Below are positions 21,621 through 32,781 of a DNA stretch of 64,000 nt, in pieces. Numbering within the stretch: the first letter of the stretch is position 1; the number at the start of each line of letters is the position of its first letter. The notes below the pieces were generated by a model. It searched no databases, was not told the DNA's origin, and worked only from the letters and a program-made list of their open reading frames with translations. The translations under genes were made by a program, and so were the position numbers. Origin of the DNA: Opitutaceae bacterium (GTDB taxonomy: Bacteria > Verrucomicrobiota > Verrucomicrobiia > Opitutales > Opitutaceae); contig JABTUS010000001.1 in the NCBI GenBank assembly GCA_015075305.1, positions 558,001 through 622,000 on the forward strand. Direction: 5' to 3'.

Positions 21621-22298
21621 CTACGGCATCGCTTCGAGTTCGGCAACGGTCCAGGACTTCGAGCCGCGAGCGGCATCCTTTGTGCGAATCTCGGTAACCC
21701 TGGCAGGATCAACTGGGGCAGCCTTGTTGCCCCATTCCTGACGAATATAGGTCAGGACGTGGGCGATGCGATCGTCGCTCCAGTTGAAGCCGCCAGCGCC
21801 CTGCCCAAAGGCGGGCATGACCCCATTGAAGGTTCCTCCGTGCACCTTGAGCTCACCGGTCAAACCGTGCAAAAGAATGCGGATCACGCGATCCTCGCTG
21901 CCATTCACCCATTCCGAGTTGGCCAGCGGGGGAAATGCTCCCGGCACGCCCTGCCCCGTGGCCTGGTGACAGGTCACACACATGCCCGGCGTGTTGTACA
22001 AGCGGTTGCCTGCGGCTACCGGATCGACCGCGACGGGGGGTGCCTTGCTGGCCATCGCCAGATCGAAGTGTTCATCCTGAACCAGGGGGCTGAAGCTGCC
22101 CCGGTAGTGCACCATGTAAATCGCGCAGACAAAGACCAGCGTGGACAGGAGCGCCAACAGGAACAGCGATGTCACGGACGTGCCATCCTTCGCCTCTGCC
22201 TTCTTTCTAATCAAATCAGCGTGGGCCTGCTGAATCGCTTCATCGGAGTTGTCACGCAACTCGACCTTGGGACCGGATGATGACGATTCGGCGCTCAT
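21621..22298 (-). CDS. Membrane-anchored monoheme cytochrome c (CcoP-like position)
   Basis: A 225-residue protein with one transmembrane anchor (about residues 42-64, SLFLLALLSTLVFVCAIYMV) and a periplasmic class I cytochrome c domain. The heme is attached at CVTCH, and a likely axial Met is in GVMPAFGQG. Classic CcoP has two hemes; only one is seen here. It is the last gene of the respiratory operon, overlapping the CcoO-like gene by 4 bases, and probably carries electrons for the CcoN-like module. Confidence 0.85.
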   Translation of the reverse strand: MSAESSSSGPKVELRDNSDEAIQQAHADLIRKKAEAKDGTSVTSLFLLALLSTLVFVCAIYMVHYRGSFSPLVQDEHFDLAMASKAPPVAVDPVAAGNRLYNTPGMCVTCHQATGQGVPGAFPPLANSEWVNGSEDRVIRILLHGLTGELKVHGGTFNGVMPAFGQGAGGFNWSDDRIAHVLTYIRQEWGNKAAPVDPARVTEIRTKDAARGSKSWTVAELEAMP

Positions 22299-22975
22299 TT
22301 GTGGCCTCCCTCCGCTCCAGCTGCTTCCGCCGGCTTGGCGACATACAGGTTTGCTGCCTCAGGATACGCGTGGGTGTCTTTCAAGCTCAGCAAATAGGAA
22401 ACCAGTGCTTCAGCGCGGTCAGTCGCCACAATTTCATAGCCTGCCGGGGGCTGCGCCTCCGCGGGAAGCAGCTGTTGAATGGATCTGTGGGAGCGCTCCC
22501 CCACGATCTTTCGGGTTTCAAAAAGAAAGCGGTAGGACGGCATCATCGAACCGGGTGACGTGAGCTGCGCGTTGTAGAGATGCCGAACATGCCAGTCCCG
22601 TCCATCCTGCCCCTCCTTGCGAACGCCGACGTAGCGCAGATCAGGGCCGATTCGCTGACTCCCCAGAAGCACGAACGGATCATTCACGTACTCGCGCGCA
22701 ACACTCTGCCTGTCGCCCCAGCCCTGCTTGTCATCGATGCCATATCCGGGGCGTCGCGTCTGTTGAGTGTGACAGGCTGCACAGCCAAGATCCCGATACA
22801 CCAGCCGCCCCTGTTCGGCGATTCCGGATATCGGAACCGGGTAGGAGACGCCGTCATTGGGATCCAAGTGCGGGATCATCCGCCCGTAGGTGATCTGGTT
22901 GACCATGACCACACCAACCCACGACAAAGCCAGCGCGGCAAAGAGTCCCAGGTAGAAAAAGAGCGAGCGTTTCAT
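22295..22975 (-). CDS. ccoO: cbb3-type oxidase cytochrome c subunit, CcoO-like
   Basis: A 226-residue protein with an N-terminal membrane anchor (FFYLGLFAALALSWVGVVMV) and a CcoO-type cytochrome c domain. Visible are heme motif CAACH, the conserved segment QRIGPDLRYVGVR, DWHVRHLYN, and the axial Met region GSMMPSYRF. All match CcoO, which passes electrons from CcoP to subunit I. Heme binding looks intact even though the neighbouring subunit I homologue lacks its ligands. It is linked to both neighbours by 4-base overlaps. Confidence 0.87.
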   Translation of the reverse strand: MKRSLFFYLGLFAALALSWVGVVMVNQITYGRMIPHLDPNDGVSYPVPISGIAEQGRLVYRDLGCAACHTQQTRRPGYGIDDKQGWGDRQSVAREYVNDPFVLLGSQRIGPDLRYVGVRKEGQDGRDWHVRHLYNAQLTSPGSMMPSYRFLFETRKIVGERSHRSIQQLLPAEAQPPAGYEIVATDRAEALVSYLLSLKDTHAYPEAANLYVAKPAEAAGAEGGHK

Positions 22976-24450
22976 CGAATGACGGCCTCCTTCGTGCCGG
23001 TGTAGCCTGAGGAGGTGGAGGAGCGGAACAGCGCGCAGCAGCAGCAGCCCGCCTTGCGGAATGTGCGCATGAGGTTAACAGCGAAAAGCAATTGACCGAT
23101 GAGGAGAATTGTCGCCGCCAGAGTCTGCGCGGAAAGGTAGGGCTTCAACTGTTGCATCACCGCCAGAAGAGGCGGAGGTGTTTCCTGGCCCGAGGGCAAT
23201 GCGTTGATCAGAAAACCCTGTTTCAGCCCACCGACAGTGAGGGCGGCGACACCGAGAGTCACGCCGATCACCGACAGCCAGAAATGGGCGGTCACCAATC
23301 CACGCGAGCTCCATTCCACACCGAGGATTTTCGGCACCAGGTAGTAGAGTCCGCCAAGGGCCACGAGGCTGAAAACACCCAGGAAGAACAGCTGGGATTG
23401 CGCCGGAAGCACCAGCGTGAACTGGGTGATCTCGGCAACTGACCTGAGGCTCAATGCGACGGTGGAAAGCGCCCAGAGGAGCAGTGCAAGGACTGCGAAT
23501 GAAAAGAAGCGCAGCGTTCCCGAAGTCTCCCCCGTGGCGCGCGGCCCCAGCAGAGTCGGCAGAAAGTTGATGGCAAGGACCGCCCAGGTCACAACAATCA
23601 TCAGGGTGCCGCTGACCCCTGCCGATACGACCCAGGCTGGAACAGGAGCCCCGGACAAGCGGGCAAGCCCCGCCCAGCCTCCAAAGAGAGCGAGCATCCA
23701 AAAGCCATAAATGCTGATTGAGTAGTTGTTGATCGGGCGACTCAGAAGCTTGGGTAGAAAATAGTATAGCGCACCCAGCGCAACGGGGAGGAGGTAAAGA
23801 TGGATCAGCCCCTGCGCAAACCAAGTGTGGACAATCGCCTGAACCGTGCCGCGAACCGGGTTGATGAACAGCATGATTTCAGTGAGCGAGAAGATCCATG
23901 GGAACCAGAAGAGCGCGCCGAGAAGATACCACTGCGATATGTACACGGGCCGGATTTTCCCATACTGATAAACTTGGAAAATCCACATTCCAATGAATGC
24001 ATACGCAACGAAGAGCAGCGGAGCCGCATAGGCGGGCAGCTCGAGCATTTCGAGTGACGTGCCGTCGCCAAACATCACGCCGCCAGCTCCGATCGCGACA
24101 CCCAGGTTCCAGAAGGAGATGGCAACAAGAAGCAGCGCAGGCTGAGGCAGCATGCTGCGGGACAGCCTGGCCAGCAACCAGACGGAAAGAGCAAAGGCGG
24201 CATTGAATCCCCAGCCGTAAATCAAGGCAATGCTCTCGGCCCCGCGTGTGCGTCCATAGGTCAGGCACTCCAGGTCGCCGAGAAAATTCGGTGCATGGAG
24301 CTTGATGGAGGATATCACCGCCAGCACCGCGCCGATGAGCAGCCAGCCCGCCGCAGAGGCCGCAAACAAGGATACGGGGGCCCTCAGCGATGCATCAATT
24401 GCCGCATCGTCAGATTGGGATGACCCGCTTGAATTCGATAGTGAAGCCAT
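22972..24450 (-). CDS. CcoN-like heme-copper oxidase subunit I homologue lacking all metal ligands
   Basis: A 492-residue, roughly 12-helix membrane protein of the CcoN family. Fold landmarks match CcoN: LTYGRTRGAESIALIYGW, ALYYFLPK, ISIYGFWML, LYYLVPKIL and AHFWLSVIG. Aligning these blocks to the CcoN pattern I know, the low-spin heme His of helix 2 becomes Glu72, the helix 6 copper His becomes Gln213, the helix 7 His-His pair becomes Ala263-Arg264, and the helix 10 HxH becomes Gln351-Ser-Gln353. The catalytic Tyr position is Gly257. It should bind no heme or copper. The C-terminal tail carries four consecutive Cys. A structural or electron-transfer scaffold role is inferred. Confidence 0.8.
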   Translation of the reverse strand: MASLSNSSGSSQSDDAAIDASLRAPVSLFAASAAGWLLIGAVLAVISSIKLHAPNFLGDLECLTYGRTRGAESIALIYGWGFNAAFALSVWLLARLSRSMLPQPALLLVAISFWNLGVAIGAGGVMFGDGTSLEMLELPAYAAPLLFVAYAFIGMWIFQVYQYGKIRPVYISQWYLLGALFWFPWIFSLTEIMLFINPVRGTVQAIVHTWFAQGLIHLYLLPVALGALYYFLPKLLSRPINNYSISIYGFWMLALFGGWAGLARLSGAPVPAWVVSAGVSGTLMIVVTWAVLAINFLPTLLGPRATGETSGTLRFFSFAVLALLLWALSTVALSLRSVAEITQFTLVLPAQSQLFFLGVFSLVALGGLYYLVPKILGVEWSSRGLVTAHFWLSVIGVTLGVAALTVGGLKQGFLINALPSGQETPPPLLAVMQQLKPYLSAQTLAATILLIGQLLFAVNLMRTFRKAGCCCCALFRSSTSSGYTGTKEAVIR

Positions 24451-24465
24451 GCTTTGAAGTGGATG

Positions 24466-24801
24466 CTATTTCCGCGACGCATTCATTTCAGCGATCGTCA
24501 GTTCCATTGCCCGATCGATGGGAAGGCGGACTCTGCCCGCCCCCTGATCCACCCAGCCATAGGTTGTCGCAGCCGCGGCCTCCTTCTCGTGAAGCTCGGC
24601 CAGCTTTGCGCTCCGGCCTGCCGGGGTGTTTTTCCACTGCTCGTCCTCCGCGCCTCCGGCGTAGCTGCGTGCAGGAACCGGATCCTGCCGGACCAGCGCG
24701 TAGATCACTATGAAGATCGCAAAGGCGACCGCGATCACCAGTGCCGAAAAAAACGACAGGCGCGGGCGGAATGCGTCGGATTTAGTCTGGGGAAGACTCA
24801 T
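24466..24801 (-). CDS. Small membrane protein of the alternative complex III operon (ActG-like position)
   Basis: A 111-residue protein with one transmembrane helix (FFSALVIAVAFAIFIVIYALV, about residues 17-38) and a soluble tail ending in WVDQGAGRVRLPIDRAMEL. A similar pattern of IPIDRAMEL near the C terminus occurs, as I recall, in small proteins of other respiratory clusters. ATG 24801 overlaps the end of actF by 20 bases. It sits between actF and the CcoN-like gene, so it may be an accessory subunit that connects or stabilises the two complexes. Identity with ActG is inferred from position only. Confidence 0.65.
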   Translation of the reverse strand: MSLPQTKSDAFRPRLSFFSALVIAVAFAIFIVIYALVRQDPVPARSYAGGAEDEQWKNTPAGRSAKLAELHEKEAAAATTYGWVDQGAGRVRLPIDRAMELTIAEMNASRK

Positions 24802-26089
24802 GATAGGTGAGACATTCTGCGATCCTTGGATCACGGATCGGGATCAGTTTTGTCGTGCCAAAGCTCCGGAGGTACGCCCAGATGCAGATTCCACCGATGC
24901 CGACAACGGCGGTGAGTGTCCAGATCTGGTGGACCGCGAGGAAAGGCAGGGGATCGCCGAGCGCGTTCTTCTTGGATGGCCAGATATTGTAGATCATGTC
25001 GAGCAGCACGATCGCGGCGATCGTCACCGCCACGCGTGGCATCGCGACCTTGTTCAACTTGCGCTTGTAGCTGAGAAGGAGAAAAAACGGCCAGAAGAAA
25101 TGTCCAAAAAGCAGGGTCATGCCGACCCATTTCCACTGGTTCGGCTGGCCGTCGCTGTTGTTGATTTCGCGCAGGTTGTACCAGAACGTCTCCTCGGGGA
25201 CGTTTGCATTCCAGATCAGAAAGTACTGCGAAAACGTCACGTACCCCCAGAACACGGTGAACGTCAGCATGAGCATGCCGATGCAGTAGAGGTGGTTGTC
25301 ATTCAGGATTCCCTTCAAATCACCCCGGTACCACAGCCAGATCATCATGATGATGCCGGCGGAAAGGGCTGCGCGCACGCAGTTCGCAAAATACCAGACA
25401 CCGTACATCGTGGAGAACCAGTGGTACTCAAGGGATTTCACCCAAAGTATGATCGCGATGGTCAGAGTTATCGCGGTTACGGGAATCCCAAACGCCGAAG
25501 TGATTCGATTCTGCCGTGTCCAGCCGGCGTCACCATCCGAATCCTGCGCGAACGAGGCCCGGCGAAGACGTGCGGAAAGCCAGGTCCAGATCGCAAAGCA
25601 TGCGACCGTGATGATGACAAACATCGTGGGATTCAGCAATCCCGACTTCTTCACCCAAAGTTCATCCGTTCCGACCGTCCCGTGACCTCCCACCAGCGAT
25701 AGATCGAAGGCGGGATTCATCCATTTCCAAACCGAGCCCGGATAAATGACGACGGCCAGCAGCAGCGGCACGAAGAGCAGGGCGAGCCACTTGAAGGACG
25801 CCAGGCCGTGCTCGAACTGGCGGCGCAGGACGACCGACCATGAGGCATCGAAAACGTGGTGGATCATCACCAGCAGCAGCATGCCCAGGGCCACGCCACC
25901 CCAGAAAGTGATTCCCACCAGCCACGAGAAGGCGATCTTGGAGGGATCGGTGAAAAGCAGGCCAAGCGCGGTGAGCAGCACTCCCGCCACCCCGATCGTC
26001 AATGCCCTGCCGCCGGCCGGTGCCCGCGCACCCGCCGAGGACGGCGTTGCGGGCACGGCTGAAGAGGATGATGCAGCGTGTGTACTCAT
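24782..26089 (-). CDS. actF: Alternative complex III membrane subunit ActF
   Basis: A 435-residue integral membrane protein with about 10 predicted helices, related to ActC/NrfD-like quinone-interacting subunits. Signature segments include LLVMIHHVFDASWSVVLRRQFEH and SLEYHWFSTMYGVWYFANC. ActF is the second large membrane subunit of the quinol:cytochrome c oxidoreductase. The N terminus is a 25-residue Ala/Ser/Pro-rich polar extension. It overlaps actE by 4 bases and is followed by the small membrane protein. Confidence 0.9.
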   Translation of the reverse strand: MSTHAASSSSAVPATPSSAGARAPAGGRALTIGVAGVLLTALGLLFTDPSKIAFSWLVGITFWGGVALGMLLLVMIHHVFDASWSVVLRRQFEHGLASFKWLALLFVPLLLAVVIYPGSVWKWMNPAFDLSLVGGHGTVGTDELWVKKSGLLNPTMFVIITVACFAIWTWLSARLRRASFAQDSDGDAGWTRQNRITSAFGIPVTAITLTIAIILWVKSLEYHWFSTMYGVWYFANCVRAALSAGIIMMIWLWYRGDLKGILNDNHLYCIGMLMLTFTVFWGYVTFSQYFLIWNANVPEETFWYNLREINNSDGQPNQWKWVGMTLLFGHFFWPFFLLLSYKRKLNKVAMPRVAVTIAAIVLLDMIYNIWPSKKNALGDPLPFLAVHQIWTLTAVVGIGGICIWAYLRSFGTTKLIPIRDPRIAECLTYHESSPD

Positions 26090-26706
26090 TGGATGCCAAG
26101 CTCCGCGCGATGCGATGCAGGAACGTCTTCAACCCTGCCGCGCTGCGCGCGCTGCAGGGCGCGAACGTAGGCGACCACAGCCCAGCGTTCCGACGGCTCC
26201 AGTTTGTCCGCATAGGACATCATGGTGTTCTTGCCATGGGTGATCGTGTTGAAGATCTCGCCGTCCGCCATCTTGACCAGTCGGTCATCATGATAGGTTG
26301 GCGTGGCGCCCATGCCGTAAAGTTTCGTTATTCCATTGCCGTCTCCCAAGGCCCCGTGGCACGGTGCGCAATAGATCTGATAGCGTTCTTTCCCGTGATG
26401 AAGGAACTGCGCGTCCACGGTGAGATCCTTGGGAATGCCCATGAGCCAGGCGCCATTCGAAATCTTTCCTTCATACAGCGCCGTGTTCTCCCGGAGGTCT
26501 CCCCTCGCGACAACACCCTGTGGCATCGGACGATCAGCCATTCCATCGGCAAAAAAGGCGGAGGAGCCCTGCGCCAGGTAATGGGCCTGCCGATCCATGT
26601 CCGGAAAGACTTCCAGCGGCGGACGCAGGGACTTGCTGCCGCGGAACCCAAAGATCCCAACGGTCAGCACCACGACGAAAAACGTGACATAGTAGACGTA
26701 GCGCAT
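26086..26706 (-). CDS. actE: Alternative complex III monoheme cytochrome c, ActE
   Basis: A 206-residue protein with an N-terminal membrane anchor (YVYYVTFFVVVLTVGIFGF) and one c-type heme motif, CAPCHGALGDGNG. The likely axial Met is in NTMMSYADKLEP, and the C-terminal helix is WAVVAYVRALQRAQ. ActE carries electrons from the complex toward the terminal acceptor. Its gene lies between actD and actF as in known act operons. Confidence 0.9.
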   Translation of the reverse strand: MRYVYYVTFFVVVLTVGIFGFRGSKSLRPPLEVFPDMDRQAHYLAQGSSAFFADGMADRPMPQGVVARGDLRENTALYEGKISNGAWLMGIPKDLTVDAQFLHHGKERYQIYCAPCHGALGDGNGITKLYGMGATPTYHDDRLVKMADGEIFNTITHGKNTMMSYADKLEPSERWAVVAYVRALQRAQRGRVEDVPASHRAELGIQ

Positions 26707-26708
26707 GG

Positions 26709-27242
26709 TCAGGCTTCCAGCTCCGATATCTGTTTACCGCCCACCTTCTCCAGCAATGCCCGCGTGGCGCTGAGATTGAACTTCGGATCGCGCGCCTCGA
26801 TCACAACCAGGTACTTGTCATCGAGCCCCTTCAGGATGTGATCCGACTTGAGCACGGGGTGATAGTGCATCGGAAGGCCGTTGAGAATGAACATGCCGCC
26901 AATCGTGGCGAACGCAGTGAAGAGAATCGTCAGCTCGTAGGAAACCGGGAACGCAAACATCGGGCTGAAGAACGGCTTGCCGCCGACGATCAGGGGATAG
27001 TCAAACGCATCCGTGTAGTAGATCAGCAGCATGCCCGTCGTGAATCCCAGTATTCCGCCTGCAAGCGAAAAGCGAGGCACCCTTGAGCGACGCACTCCCA
27101 TGGCGCGATCCATACCGTGCACGGGGCAGGGCGTAATGCAGTCCCAGAACTTGTAACCGGCGTCGCGGACTCCCTCCGCCGCATGATAAATGTCGGGAGC
27201 CGTGTCGAACACGGCAACGAGACCATAAGGTTGTGCAGCCAT
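26709..27242 (-). CDS. actD: Alternative complex III subunit ActD (DUF3341)
   Basis: A 177-residue membrane protein. The N-terminal soluble part (LVAVFDTAPDIYHAAEGVRDAGYKFWDC, then TPCPVHGMDRAMG) matches DUF3341, followed by two transmembrane helices (about 60-80 and 100-122). ActD is a structural subunit without cofactors. The gene starts 39 bases after actC and ends 2 bases before actE. Confidence 0.92.
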   Translation of the reverse strand: MAAQPYGLVAVFDTAPDIYHAAEGVRDAGYKFWDCITPCPVHGMDRAMGVRRSRVPRFSLAGGILGFTTGMLLIYYTDAFDYPLIVGGKPFFSPMFAFPVSYELTILFTAFATIGGMFILNGLPMHYHPVLKSDHILKGLDDKYLVVIEARDPKFNLSATRALLEKVGGKQISELEA

Positions 27243-27281: not shown

Positions 27282-28739
27282 TTAGTGGGCGCCACGGTCA
27301 CCATGACCGGAGGCTGCGTCGGGATGTCCATGCGGATCCGCCTGCGGCATCACAGCCTTGAGCTCGGCCATGGGCATGAGCGGCAGGAACCGGATGAAGA
27401 GAAGGAACAGGACGCTGAAGACCCCGAAGGTTCCAAAGAACGTGAAGATATCGACCACCGTCGGGCTGAAATAGCCCCAGCTCGAGGGGAGAAAATCCCG
27501 GGCGAGCGAAGTCACGATGATCACGAACCGCTCGAACCACATTCCCACGTTCACAAAGATCGACAGCACCCACACGAGAGCGGTGTTCTGGCGGACCGCC
27601 TTGAACCAGAAGAGCTGCGGCGTGAGCACATTGCAGGAAATCATGATGAAGTAGGCCCACGCATACTGCCCGAACGCCCGGTTGATGAAGGCAAATCCCT
27701 CGTAGGGGTTGGCTCCATACCAGGCGATGAAGAACTCCATGCCATAGGCGTATCCCACCATGGTGCCGGTGGCCAGGGTGATCTTGCACATGCAGTCGAT
27801 GTGGTACTGCGTGATGAGGTCCTGGAGGCCATAGATCGCGCGGAGCGGGAGCATCAGCGTCAGGACCATGCCGAAACCCGAGAAGATCGCCCCCGCCACG
27901 AAGTAGGGCGGAAAGATCGTTGTATGCCAGCCGGGGATCAGCGAGACCGCGAAGTCAAACGACACGATGGTATGCACTGAAAGCACCAGCGGTGTCGCGA
28001 TGCCCGCAAGGATGAGGTAGGCCATCTCATAGTTGCTCCAGTGGCGGTTGGAACCCCGCCAGCCCATCGCAAAAATGCCATAGAGGATTCCGCGAAGCCG
28101 ATTGCCGGCTGCGGTGAAGCGATCCCGCAGGATGGCAAGATCGGGAATGAGCCCGACATACCAGAAGAGGACCGACACGGTTCCGTACGTTGAAACGGCA
28201 AACACGTCCCACTCGAGCGGGGAACGGAAGTTCTGCCAGATTGAATTGGCCGACGGAATCGGGAAGAGGTACCACGCGAGCCAGACGCGCCCCACGTGAA
28301 AGACCGGAAAGATCGCGGCGCAAACAACCGCAAAGATCGTCATGGCCTCGGCTGCACGATTGATCGACGTGCGCCATTTCTGCCGCAGGAGGCAGAGAAT
28401 GGCCGAGATCAGCGTGCCCGCATGGCCGATGCCGATCCAGAACACGAAGTTGACGATGCCCCACGCCCAATTGACCGGATTGGCAAGGCCCCAGACGCCG
28501 ACACCCGTCCCGACCAGATAGATCAGGCCCGCGATCGTGAAGGAGGCGATCATGGCGGCCAGAACGAAGCATACCCACCACCAGGTGGGCGTCTTCCCTT
28601 CGATGATGCCGCAGATCTTGTCGGTTACCCAGCCAAAGCTGCGGTTGTTTTCGACAAGCGTCGCGCGGGGGAGTATGGCCGGTTTTACCTCCTGAAGGAT
28701 GGCCGGCGCCGGGTAGCTGGATTCAACAGCGGGTGGCAT
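27282..28739 (-). CDS. actC: Alternative complex III quinone-binding membrane subunit ActC (NrfD/PsrC family)
   Basis: A 485-residue membrane protein with about 10 helices. Family features include [59 protein letters not shown] and [18 protein letters not shown]. ActC binds menaquinol and passes electrons toward ActB. The C-terminal tail is His/Asp-rich. The start overlaps the actB stop. Confidence 0.94.
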
Positions 28740-31700
28740 TAGCTGAGTCCTCCGAAGGATGTATTGGAACCCTTGCCGCCAAGCTTCGGTCCCGTGTTGC
28801 TGCCGTCGGGAGGAATGGCACCATGGCCATGGCTCTGTTTCTGTTCACCGTGGCCGTGTTCATCATGAGCGGGGTGATTCTTGGCTTCATATTCCTTGCG
28901 GCTGAGCGGAAGGCTGACGTAGTCCGGCATCTCCGGATTTGGATTTCTGAATCTTCCCAGATAGGTCGTGCGAGGACGAATGTTGAGATACCCGAGCACG
29001 GCATAGTCCTGCTCGCGAGCCTTGGCCTTCGATACCGCGCTGTTGGGATCCTTGATGTTGCCGAAAACGATGGCGTCGACGGGGCAGACCTGCTGACACG
29101 CCGTCTTGACGGTTCCGTCCGGAATCTCCACACGGGAGGACGCCCCCGCCTTCACCTTCTGAAGGATCTTGGCGTGCTCGATGCGCTGAACGCAGTACGT
29201 GCACTTCTCCATGACGCCGCGCATGCGCACGGACACCTCGGGATTCTTCACCATCTTGACGAGCTCCGGCATGCCGGAACGGCCGAGCGGCCCCATGTAA
29301 AGTTCATCGATCGAGCGCTTGTTCCAATCGAAGAAATTGAAGCGGCGCACCTTGTACGGGCAGTTGTTCGCACAGTAGCGGGTGCCGATGCAGCGATTGT
29401 AGGCCATCACGTTCAGCCCCTCGTCATCGTGAACCGTCGCATTCACGGGACACACGGTCTCACAGGGGGCGAGTTCGCAGTGCTGGCAGGCGACCGGTTG
29501 CACCACAACCTGGGGATCCTCCGGAATCACCTTGTTGCCCTCGCCTCCGAACGCCGCCGCATCCGCACGACCGTCAGAGTAATAGCGATCCAGCCGGATC
29601 CAGTGCATTTCACGCCCTCGCAGAACCTGCTGCTTGCCGACGATCGGAATGTTGTTCTCAGCCTGGCAGGCGATCACGCACGCGTTGCAGCCGGTGCAGG
29701 TGTTGAGATCGATCGACATCCCCCACTGGTGCACACCCTTGTAGTCGGGGCTTTCGTAGAGCGAATTTCCACGCGGAGTCCCGGCCGCAATCGCCGCAAG
29801 CGGGAGGTTCTTGTCCTTGCCCAGGTTCGCGGGCGCATGGGACTCCATGCCGATCGAATTCACCCAGTCCGGATCGCGCGCGAATTCATCCAGATTTGCC
29901 TCTCGTACGATGTCGCGACCTTCCATCGACCAATGCTCCTGGGTGTTTGCCAGCGCGTAACGCCGCGGTGTCACCTCGATTTTTCCGCCTGCGGCAACTG
30001 TCGCCGCGCTGGTCGTCCTGAGCGGATAGAAATCCTGACCGGTCTTGCTGCCGATCCGTCCGGAAACCTTCCGGCCATATCCAAGCGGCAGGATGATCGT
30101 ATAATCCGAAAGGCCCGGCTGGATGTGCATGGGACCCTCCACTGTGCGCTCACCCACCGTCACCTTTCCAACAAAGGCCATCTCCTTGCCTTGCACAAAT
30201 TCCGCAGCCTGCTTGCGAGCCACCTGAAGCAGCGCGCTGCCCGGCTCGATGCCAAGTTCCTTTCCAAGCCTGGGGCTCACGAGAATGGCATTGTCCCAGG
30301 CAATCTTGGAAATCGGGTCCGGACACTCCTGGAGCCAGCCGTTGTTGGCATATCGACCGTCATCGACCTTCGCATCCCCAACGAACCGCACCTCCAGCGA
30401 GTCCTTTGAAAACACCGCCGGCGCATAATTGGCGGCATTGATGGTGTTGCGCAGACCCCCGGAGTTCAGGCGGACACTCGCCACGGGATAGGCGGATCCG
30501 GCCAAAACACCGTCGTGAAGAAACCTGCGGAAGGCTCCGTCACCAGCGAGTCTCGAGATCGTCGCCTGCACGAGCGCATGGGGATCCGTCGTCGTTTCAT
30601 TCGCCAGCCGGGCAAACAACTCGATGTCCGTCATCCCGCCAAAAAGCGGAAGAATCTGGGGCTGAATCGGCACGACTGTTCCATCCGCCGTGCGGGCATC
30701 GCCCCACGACTCCAGGTAGTGCGCCGCCGCAACATGCGTCGACGAAGCCTGCGATGTCTCATCGGCGTAATATCCATAGCGAATGACATTCGCCACGTTC
30801 TTCAGCGCGTCGCCGAAACCGAGGTTGGCAGGCGCATTGTAGACCGGATTGCCATTGACGATGACCAGCGTCCGCACGTTCCCACCCTTCATGGCGGAAA
30901 CAAGCTCGGCAATGGGCACGATGCCTTCGCCCTGGGAAGGCACCGAAACAAAATCAACCGTGGAACCAATGTTGCCCAACGCCGCATTCAGCGCATGAAC
31001 GATGCTGTGGACGGCGACGGGCAGGTGCGGTCCCGCCACCACGGCGCACGAGCCGCGATGCTCATTCAGGTCCTTCGCAAGCGCCGTCAGCCACTTGTCC
31101 TTTTCCTTGAAATCAATCCCCGCCGCCAGGGGTGCAAACGTGGAGTCACCCGTGACCGCCTGCGCCAGGGCCGCCACGAAACCCAGCATGTGGCTTGTTG
31201 CGAGCCGAAGGCGGTGATCGGCGAGCGATCCCGTCACCGTCAGATTGCTCTCCACCGCATACAGGCGGTTCATCCGATCCGTGGGCTTCGTCATCCGACG
31301 CCCTCTGGCATAGTCTCGGGCGTAGGCAAGCGAGTGGGACTCGTTGTTGAAAATATCGGAGTCGATCGCAACAATGCGACTGGCCCGTTCAAAGTGATAG
31401 ATCGGCTTGACGTCGGATCCGAAGACGGCGCGACCCGCCTGAACAGGCACTTCGTTCGAAACCGGCTCATACGTCGACCAGAGCGCACGCGGATACCGCG
31501 CACGCAGTTTCGAAACCAGGGCCGACCGGGTGGGTGACGTGGATTCGTCAACGAGGAAGGCAAGTCCACCACCGCCGTTTGTGCCGTAGGACCGTGAGAT
31601 GCCTGTCAGCACTTCGTTGATGGCCGCCGCATCCACCGCGGATCCCTTCACCGTATGCGTCGTCGAGCGATCCGGGTCGTACAGATCAAGGATCGATGCC

Positions 31701-32128
31701 TGCGCAAGGATCGTGGTCGCTCCTCCGTACGGAGCGTAGCTGGGATTGCCCTCCAGCTTGGTCGGACGCCCCTGATGCGTTTCAGCAAGGAGAGGAATCG
31801 CCCCCCCCTTTGCAGGCATGGCGGTGGCAAAATAGAGCGGAAGACCCGGAATGACGCCTTCGACCGATTTTCCGTACGGGAGAATCTTCTCTTCGGGACG
31901 ACGGCAACCAGACGCCAGGCCGACACCGCCCAGTGCAAAGGAGGCGGCCATGATCTTGAAGAAATGGCGGCGGTCCACACCGTTCAATTCAGACGCGCCT
32001 GCTGGAAATTCACGCGCAACCTGTTCCTGGAAACCGGGCGTGGCCGCGAGTTCGTCGAGGCTGCGCCAGTAGCGCGGCCCGCTGAGTTCACGTTCCGACG
32101 GTTCGGGATGCTGAAATTCGCGTTTCAT
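28739..32128 (-). CDS. actB: Alternative complex III iron-sulfur / molybdopterin-like subunit ActB
   Basis: A 1129-residue periplasmic-side subunit. A Tat-like motif RRHFFK at residues 53-58 is followed by a hydrophobic stretch and a lipobox LASGC (Cys75). A molybdopterin-oxidoreductase-like domain (ActB1) follows, then a four-cluster ferredoxin-like domain (ActB2) with [47 protein letters not shown] and [11 protein letters not shown]. In known ACIII the first domain carries no molybdenum. ATG 32128 overlaps actA (ATGA). The longer upstream frame lies over the actA gene and was discarded. Confidence 0.95.
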
Positions 32129-32781
32129 CGATGGCAGCCGGAGCAGCTTTGCGGAGGTTGAACGTTCCAGTCGTGCACAAATTTCTTTCCCTGCTCGATC
32201 TGTCCCTGCGCTCCCTGCGGATGCACCCAGTCGAGCTTCGTGACGAGTTCGGGCGAACGAAGGACTTTCTCCGGTGCGCGGTGGCAATCCAGGCAGAATC
32301 CCATCGATAGCGGCTTCTCATGGCGAACCACCTCCATCTGGTCGATACGACCATGGCATTCGACGCAGGAAACACCGCGCGTCACGTGCACGGAGTGGTT
32401 GAAATAAACGTAATTGGGCATCACGTGCACGTTGACCCACGGCACGGGATCGCCGGAGGCAAAACTCGTGCGCACCGGCTCAAGCTGAGGGCTGCTGGCC
32501 TTGATGATGCTGTGGCAGTTCATGCAGGTCTGCGACGTCGGAATATTTGAATGCGCCGACTTATCCACATTGCTGTGACAATAGCGGCAGTCGATCCCCA
32601 GATTGCCCGCGTGAAGTGCATGGCTGAATTCAACAGGCTGCACCGGCGTATATCCGACCCGCGTGTACTTCGGCGTCGCGTAATACGTGGTCGCCGCGGT
32701 CACAATCCCGCCCAAAACCAGCAGATATATCACGATCTGCAGGGGCAGCCGATTGGCCGATTTCGGAAACAGTTTCGACAT
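32125..32781 (-). CDS. actA: Alternative complex III multiheme cytochrome c, ActA
   Basis: A 218-residue protein with an N-terminal membrane anchor (LPLQIVIYLLVLGGIVTAA) and five CxxCH heme motifs: CRYCH, CMNCH, CVECH, CLDCH and CSGCH. Several His residues can serve as distal ligands (PVEFSHALHAG, YFNHSVHV). Five hemes is standard for ActA. It starts the seven-gene act operon, which continues into the cbb3-like genes. Confidence 0.94.
   Translation of the reverse strand: MSKLFPKSANRLPLQIVIYLLVLGGIVTAATTYYATPKYTRVGYTPVQPVEFSHALHAGNLGIDCRYCHSNVDKSAHSNIPTSQTCMNCHSIIKASSPQLEPVRTSFASGDPVPWVNVHVMPNYVYFNHSVHVTRGVSCVECHGRIDQMEVVRHEKPLSMGFCLDCHRAPEKVLRSPELVTKLDWVHPQGAQGQIEQGKKFVHDWNVQPPQSCSGCHR

Follow-up and report, generated by a model that had tools for sequence, protein, structure and literature searches.

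The window, i.e. the whole stretch of 64,000 nucleotides that was analysed from a contig of an Opitutaceae bacterium, carries on its minus strand an operon with the gene order ActA, ActB, ActC, ActD, ActE, ActF, a small ORF, NL, OL and PL, where NL stands for a CcoN-like subunit I, OL for a CcoO-like and PL for a CcoP-like cytochrome c (Table 1). ActA was recognised by its heme motifs, ActC as a member of the NrfD family and ActD by its Pfam match, whereas the remaining Act names were given by position and are to be taken as our assumption. The criterion for an alternative complex III operon (ActA to ActF in order, a pentaheme ActA and an ActD) was met, with ActB and ActF named by position. 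The start of the longest ORF of ActB overlaps ActA, and its true start probably lies further in. No match was obtained in a Pfam search with the ActF-like protein, nor in Pfam or NCBIfam at E 0.001 with the small ORF that follows it, which could encode an extra subunit.

Table 1. Genes of the operon, and NL codons aligned with cofactor and active-site residues of Pseudomonas stutzeri CcoN.
Feature	Position in the window	Strand	Remarks
ActA-like cytochrome c	32125..32781	minus	five CxxCH
ActB-like iron-sulfur protein	28739..32287	minus	presumed name, from position and reading
ActC-like membrane protein	27282..28739	minus	NrfD family
ActD	26709..27242	minus	Pfam ActD, 207.9 bits
ActE-like mono-heme cytochrome c	26086..26706	minus	
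ActF-like membrane protein	24782..26089	minus	presumed name, from position
Small ORF between ActF and NL	24466..24834	minus	similar ORF at that place in many relatives
NL, CcoN-like subunit I	22972..24450	minus	492 aa, intact ORF; 0/7 heme/copper ligand or active-site residues
Glu72 codon, at His60	24235..24237	minus	phmmer alignment; P. stutzeri numbering; position computed from the ORF start
Gln213 codon, at His207	23812..23814	minus	phmmer alignment; position computed
Gly257 codon, at Tyr251	23680..23682	minus	phmmer alignment; position computed
Ala263-Arg264 codons, at His257-His258	23659..23664	minus	phmmer alignment; position computed
Gln351-Ser352-Gln353 codons, at His345-Val-His347	23392..23400	minus	phmmer alignment; position computed
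OL, CcoO-like mono-heme cytochrome c	22295..22975	minus	one CxxCH; Pfam FixO, 74.5 bits; N-terminal membrane anchor by eye
PL, CcoP-like cytochrome c	21621..22298	minus	one CxxCH; conserved Met161

The initial annotation had described NL as an intact gene coupled to neighbouring cytochromes that keep their heme motifs. The frame was indeed intact, and 4-base overlaps were confirmed between NL and OL (22972-22975) and between OL and PL (22295-22298). For the cytochromes the description was only partly right: each has one CxxCH, but a true CcoP carries two hemes c, and PL, with its single motif and a score of 30.1 bits where the ccoP cut-off is 179.95, did not meet this criterion of a cbb3 complex. 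The criterion of a CcoO-like subunit with one heme c was met by OL on its FixO match and its motif; on the ccoO equivalog it scored 69.8 bits against a cut-off of 200.65.

When NL was aligned by phmmer to the CcoN of P. stutzeri (3mk7), an E-value of 3.2e-35 was obtained, and the CcoN landmarks were placed where the initial annotation had them. The identities of the seven ligand and active-site positions of P. stutzeri CcoN are those of the cbb3 literature and are assumed here; the letters and places come from the alignment. At these positions, the substitutions H60E, H207Q, Y251G, H257A, H258R, H345Q and H347Q were read, corresponding to the same non-ligands (E72, Q213, G257, A263-R264 and Q351/Q353) that had been proposed from the sequence alone, and a MAFFT alignment of 108 rows gave the same code, EQGARQQ (0/7). 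An AlphaFold2 model of NL (mean pLDDT 89.1, pTM 0.90) could be superimposed on 3mk7 over almost its whole length (Z 50.2, rmsd 1.9 Å, 453 residues), so the structural check that had been suggested came out in favour of the CcoN fold. A chance resemblance to CcoN was rejected on the E-value and Z score.

Only four of the 492 residues of NL are His, compared with 16 in each of two canonical relatives (L028 and L107); none of them occupies a ligand site of helix 2 or helix 10, and two are in helix 6. Glu134 and Ser246, equivalent to P. stutzeri E122 and S240, are retained. By descent NL met the requirement for the heme-copper oxidase superfamily (Pfam COX1, 141.2 bits against a cut-off of 34.8), whereas the ccoN equivalog TIGR00780 was not met (131.7 bits against 583.15). 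An active CcoN, the core of a C-type oxidase, is defined by six His that act as ligands and by a Tyr in helix 7, and with 0/7 NL did not satisfy this definition either. As judged from the alignments and the predicted structure, NL keeps the CcoN fold and its cofactor sites are gone; the absence of bound cofactor is itself an inference.

A frame-shift or assembly artefact was rejected because two proteins encoded in other genomes of the same genus retain 0/7 (L027, 80% identical to NL) and 1/7 (L030) of these residues. The initial annotation had stated that its proposal would be refuted if residues such as His208 or His217 occupied the heme or copper sites. Both are kept in L027, but neither is found at the corresponding places of L030 or of L135, a relative with 57% identity, and they were rejected as displaced ligands.

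The distribution of NL was followed in three sets of genomes. Within the same family (61 genomes, that of the window included), 57 genomes had a place matching at 190 bits or more, giving 58 places as one genome (G013) has two; the next matches, at 125 bits or less, belonged to other proteins of the oxidase type, most of them in frames of around 780 aa. No stop was found within the match in 57 of the 58 places (the window's own included), the exception being G054 with one TGA. In the phylum, a match at E 1e-38 or better was present in 64 of 288 genomes, and more diverged members lie outside this sample. The third set, the best 80 of 380 relatives from a scan of named genomes, is biased to close relatives; these came from Verrucomicrobiota or its subgroups (Opitutaceae, Opitutales, Puniceicoccaceae and others) and one from Omnitrophota (L180), the nearest named relative among them being Opitutaceae bacterium UBA6669.

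Of the 105 loci examined, 103 have ActF next to NL in the same stretch. It is missing from L027, where the contig starts within NL, and from L046, an additional canonical copy that is separate from the act genes. The latter (G013:C1 3327784-3329115) is of the act type with no act gene match near, in a genome that also has an operon copy; its reading as a 999-aa fusion was rejected, as the added length appeared by eye to be merely a stop-to-stop extension. In L117-L119, ActE and ActF are present, no ActA, ActB or ActD match was found and ActC is missing from its usual place. All the OL (53/53) and PL (52/52) proteins found among 57 family loci contain CxxCH. In seven loci of another family, f7 (L108-L112, L115 and L116), the PL match is located about 0.9 kb before NL and not behind OL, and represents another or a moved cytochrome.

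The number of retained residues was bimodal. Among 104 full-length NL proteins, including that of the window and leaving out L060 and L083, which are truncated by contig ends, 32 keep 7/7, none keeps four to six and 72 keep three or fewer (three residues, n = 2; two, n = 5; one, n = 45; none, n = 20). The best 80 of the 380 named-genome relatives, further loci with the bias mentioned, comprised 69 with 7/7, five with one residue and three with none, plus the partial states L154 (4/7), L205 (3/7) and L191 (2/7). Geminisphaera colitermitum TAV2 (L152) is among those with 7/7. L101 and L104 retain just H60 and H347, the ligand pair of the low-spin heme b, the active site being lost, and H60 is kept in several class-level members. 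These partial states look like stages of loss. The replacement codes vary by lineage (for example QQGRHQQ, ANTSRRW, FNAAEVL, HSAQKFI, SESSHFV and EQGARQQ). Ligand loss is not uniform across act operons, uniformity being what the initial annotation had put forward for checking, as intact and ligand-less forms occupy the same slot in different genera. Because intact versions fill this slot elsewhere, NL looks like a C-type oxidase linked to alternative complex III whose cofactors were lost, probably on more than one occasion.

The claim that NL is not a decaying gene was supported by its comparison with the congener L027, which gave a dN/dS of about 0.05-0.06, at a saturated dS of 2.0-2.5, and by the frames of the family, stop-free in all places but one. 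By the NG86 method, dN/dS ranged from 0.05 to 0.29 in ligand-less pairs versus 0.01 to 0.07 in four canonical pairs. At an ActC identity near 80%, NL identity was 66% in canonical pairs and 35% in lost pairs. Constraint on the ligand-less NL, as estimated from these sequence comparisons, is relaxed yet present; the fast evolution and higher dN/dS also fit a slow degeneration. Out of 143 columns conserved at 95% or more in 46 deduplicated canonical NL, 41 were released and 39 were still conserved at 90% or more in 71 lost proteins (L060, L083, L135 and near-duplicates excluded). The released columns include the ligands and P. stutzeri E122, W203, T215, S240, H337 and R437.

The partner cytochromes were compared in the same way. 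Position 107 of OL is Met in 21 of 22 canonical operons versus 2 of 42 lost ones, a shift that we read as a change in the partner accompanying ligand loss. At position 145, the presumed axial Met, a His, Lys or Arg was found in nine of the 42 lost operons and in none of the 22 canonical ones, in a region that is partly gapped; these replacements (L039, L061, L064, L065, L070, L072, L073, L082 and L106) would alter the redox potential. Met161 of PL is invariant in 21 canonical and all 42 lost rows. Both cytochromes c are kept, and OL looks retuned, not merely kept.

The number of losses inferred depended on the genes used. In a tree of ActB, ActC and ActF (96 rows, quick method; L083 scored as lost on its two visible sites), 13 state changes were obtained, at least 10 of them forced by well-supported branches. 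The OL+PL tree (63 rows, without L046, L060, L076, L079, L083 and one row lacking a PL match) gave eight changes, at least four forced; the window, L027 and L030 fall within a clade of 19 rows, 11 of which are canonical. The tree of NL itself, built without the seven columns and excluding L060, L083, L117-L119 and 14 near-duplicates, required three changes, two of them forced, and a separate NL tree of the family alone required one. As the lost rows evolve fast, long-branch attraction is likely in this NL tree. The discrepancy between 13 changes in the operon tree and three in that of NL leaves the number of losses, and the choice between convergence and gene exchange, undecided.

A history with a single loss, or with few, after which the core gene moved between operons by exchange, is an alternative to many independent losses that we regard as rather unlikely. 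It would account for the few changes in the core's own trees and for the poorer fit of the NL data to the grouping of the neighbours (p 0.028). Against it, a single clade of the family's lost rows was rejected by the OL+PL data (p 0.0017), the operon tree forces its many changes, the replacement residues vary from one lineage to another and partial states such as L154, L205 and L101 exist. When the 228 columns that differ between states were dropped, the NL tree rose to six changes, although only one was forced and the removal is by design biased toward that outcome. Convergent loss is favoured over exchange of the core gene, which is not excluded.

The genome of the window has five further PF00115 matches, four above the cut-off, including a full CcoN (644.9 bits), and by inference O2 reduction does not depend on the window NL. 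At another locus of this genome (L134; contig C14, 30000-42000), as in L004 and L006, two heme-copper-type genes are adjacent; the second gene of the L134-type pair reached only 31 bits on COX1, below the cut-off, lacks by eye one His around helix 7 and is perhaps another altered core in the window genome. Each of the lost genomes among 48 examined has at least two PF00115 matches, the working status of each not being established. In G061, a canonical NL is the only PF00115 match and a search for a bd oxidase gave no match, so the intact NL plausibly functions as an oxidase, within a search that did not extend to further types of terminal oxidase.

In 20 of 105 loci (19 ligand-less, plus the canonical L107), an A-type COX1 follows downstream at a distance of 3-4 kb and on the same strand, and L046 has one 6.7 kb upstream. 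No adjoining A-type oxidase was found, in the stretch examined, in the loci of the window's family other than L046. Given this lack and the canonical L107 with an A-type neighbour, adjacency does not strictly track ligand loss.

NL resembles the CcoN of the P. stutzeri cbb3 oxidase in fold, length, landmark order and CcoO-like and CcoP-like neighbours; it differs in having no ligands for heme b, heme b3 and CuB and no active-site Tyr, in its location in an act operon and in a CcoP-like partner with one heme motif. In PMC8498564, Refojo et al. (2010) are cited for a C-type oxidase that adjoins alternative complex III, both in Opitutaceae and in methanotrophs of the Verrucomicrobiota. The window NL occupies the same slot among the same neighbours, but while that system is described there as an oxidase, NL is ligand-less in the window, many relatives and four PmoA-bearing genomes, and intact in other genera. 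The supercomplex of alternative complex III and aa3 oxidase of Flavobacterium johnsoniae (Sun et al., 2018, as cited in PMC8361435) is similar in that complex III is coupled to an oxidase module; its partner is an A-type oxidase, whereas here the adjoining module is a C-type core without cofactor sites.

The four PmoA-bearing genomes belong to family f8 and carry a ligand-less NL (SESSHFV in three, ADAAHQT in one); their best ccoN matches were of 27-34 bits, with nothing else near the CcoN cut-off. That PmoA marks verrucomicrobial methanotrophs within this class is an inference. A cbb3 oxidase adjoining complex III is reported for verrucomicrobial methanotrophs (PMC8498564, PMC6688271) and tied to low-oxygen growth (PMC6688271), and cbb3 and aa3 genes are also reported for them (PMC11102522). 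We infer, without comparison of locus tags, that the published cbb3 gene is the ligand-less NL gene. No description of a ligand-less CcoN in an act operon was found in the literature searched, which did not cover subscription papers and supplements, and an earlier one is not excluded.

The explanation to which we lean, with some reserve, is that NL descends from an oxidase and has become a cofactor-free scaffold that holds two cytochromes c at complex III, the attachment, the relay, the acceptor and the absence of cofactors being inferred. The ancestor would have been a heme-copper oxidase of the C-type (cbb3-like), made of a CcoN-like core and two mono-heme cytochromes c and encoded together with alternative complex III. 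In the window and in many related lineages, the residues for the low-spin heme, the high-spin heme and CuB and the active-site Tyr are gone from the core, as is much of what surrounds them on the proton path and at the propionates; the fold, a different group of conserved residues and the two cytochromes c remain. At present NL most likely serves as a membrane scaffold holding the two cytochromes c against complex III, with electrons passing from quinol through the hemes of complex III and the OL and PL cytochromes to another oxidase, which in several families would be the A-type oxidase encoded directly downstream. The cofactor-free scaffold beside alternative complex III proposed in the initial annotation is supported by alignment, model and synteny, but its attachment and role rest on gene order only. 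Points against this explanation are the lack of physical or biochemical evidence of a complex, the fast evolution and raised dN/dS of lost members, the Glu134 and Ser246 still present in NL, the loose relation between A-type neighbours and ligand loss, and the changes in OL.

It is also conceivable, but in our judgement improbable, that NL lost its cofactors once another oxidase had replaced it, is on its way out and only aids the assembly or stability of the membrane part of complex III or of the cytochromes, without any role in electron transfer. The fast evolution and raised dN/dS of lost members would agree with this, as would the further PF00115 matches of the window genome and of the lost genomes examined, whose activity is not established. 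Nevertheless, dN/dS stays well below 1, the frames are intact in all but one of the family places, and the heme motif in every OL and PL found, together with the PL Met161 of all lost operons, points to working cytochromes. Still less credit is given to the idea that NL uses different residues to bind heme or some other cofactor and has acquired a new function, redox or regulatory: a few relatives do keep H60 and H347, or H60, but the window NL has four His in all, neither helix 2 nor helix 10 has one at its ligand site, and its helix 6 pair is not conserved in L030 and L135.

Beyond the window, we are evenly divided on whether the scaffold explanation extends to a recurrent route, in which an oxidase core repeatedly sheds all its heme and copper sites and the complex is kept as a cytochrome relay from complex III to a different oxidase; the "cbb3" of the methanotrophs would then be no oxidase. 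Annotation by profile only will keep labelling ligand-less NL proteins as oxidases. If the explanation holds, a heme-copper oxidase core can lose its entire catalytic equipment yet stay under selection, and the intact and stripped forms of NL in the same slot of related genera would constitute a natural experiment on the non-catalytic purpose of subunit I.
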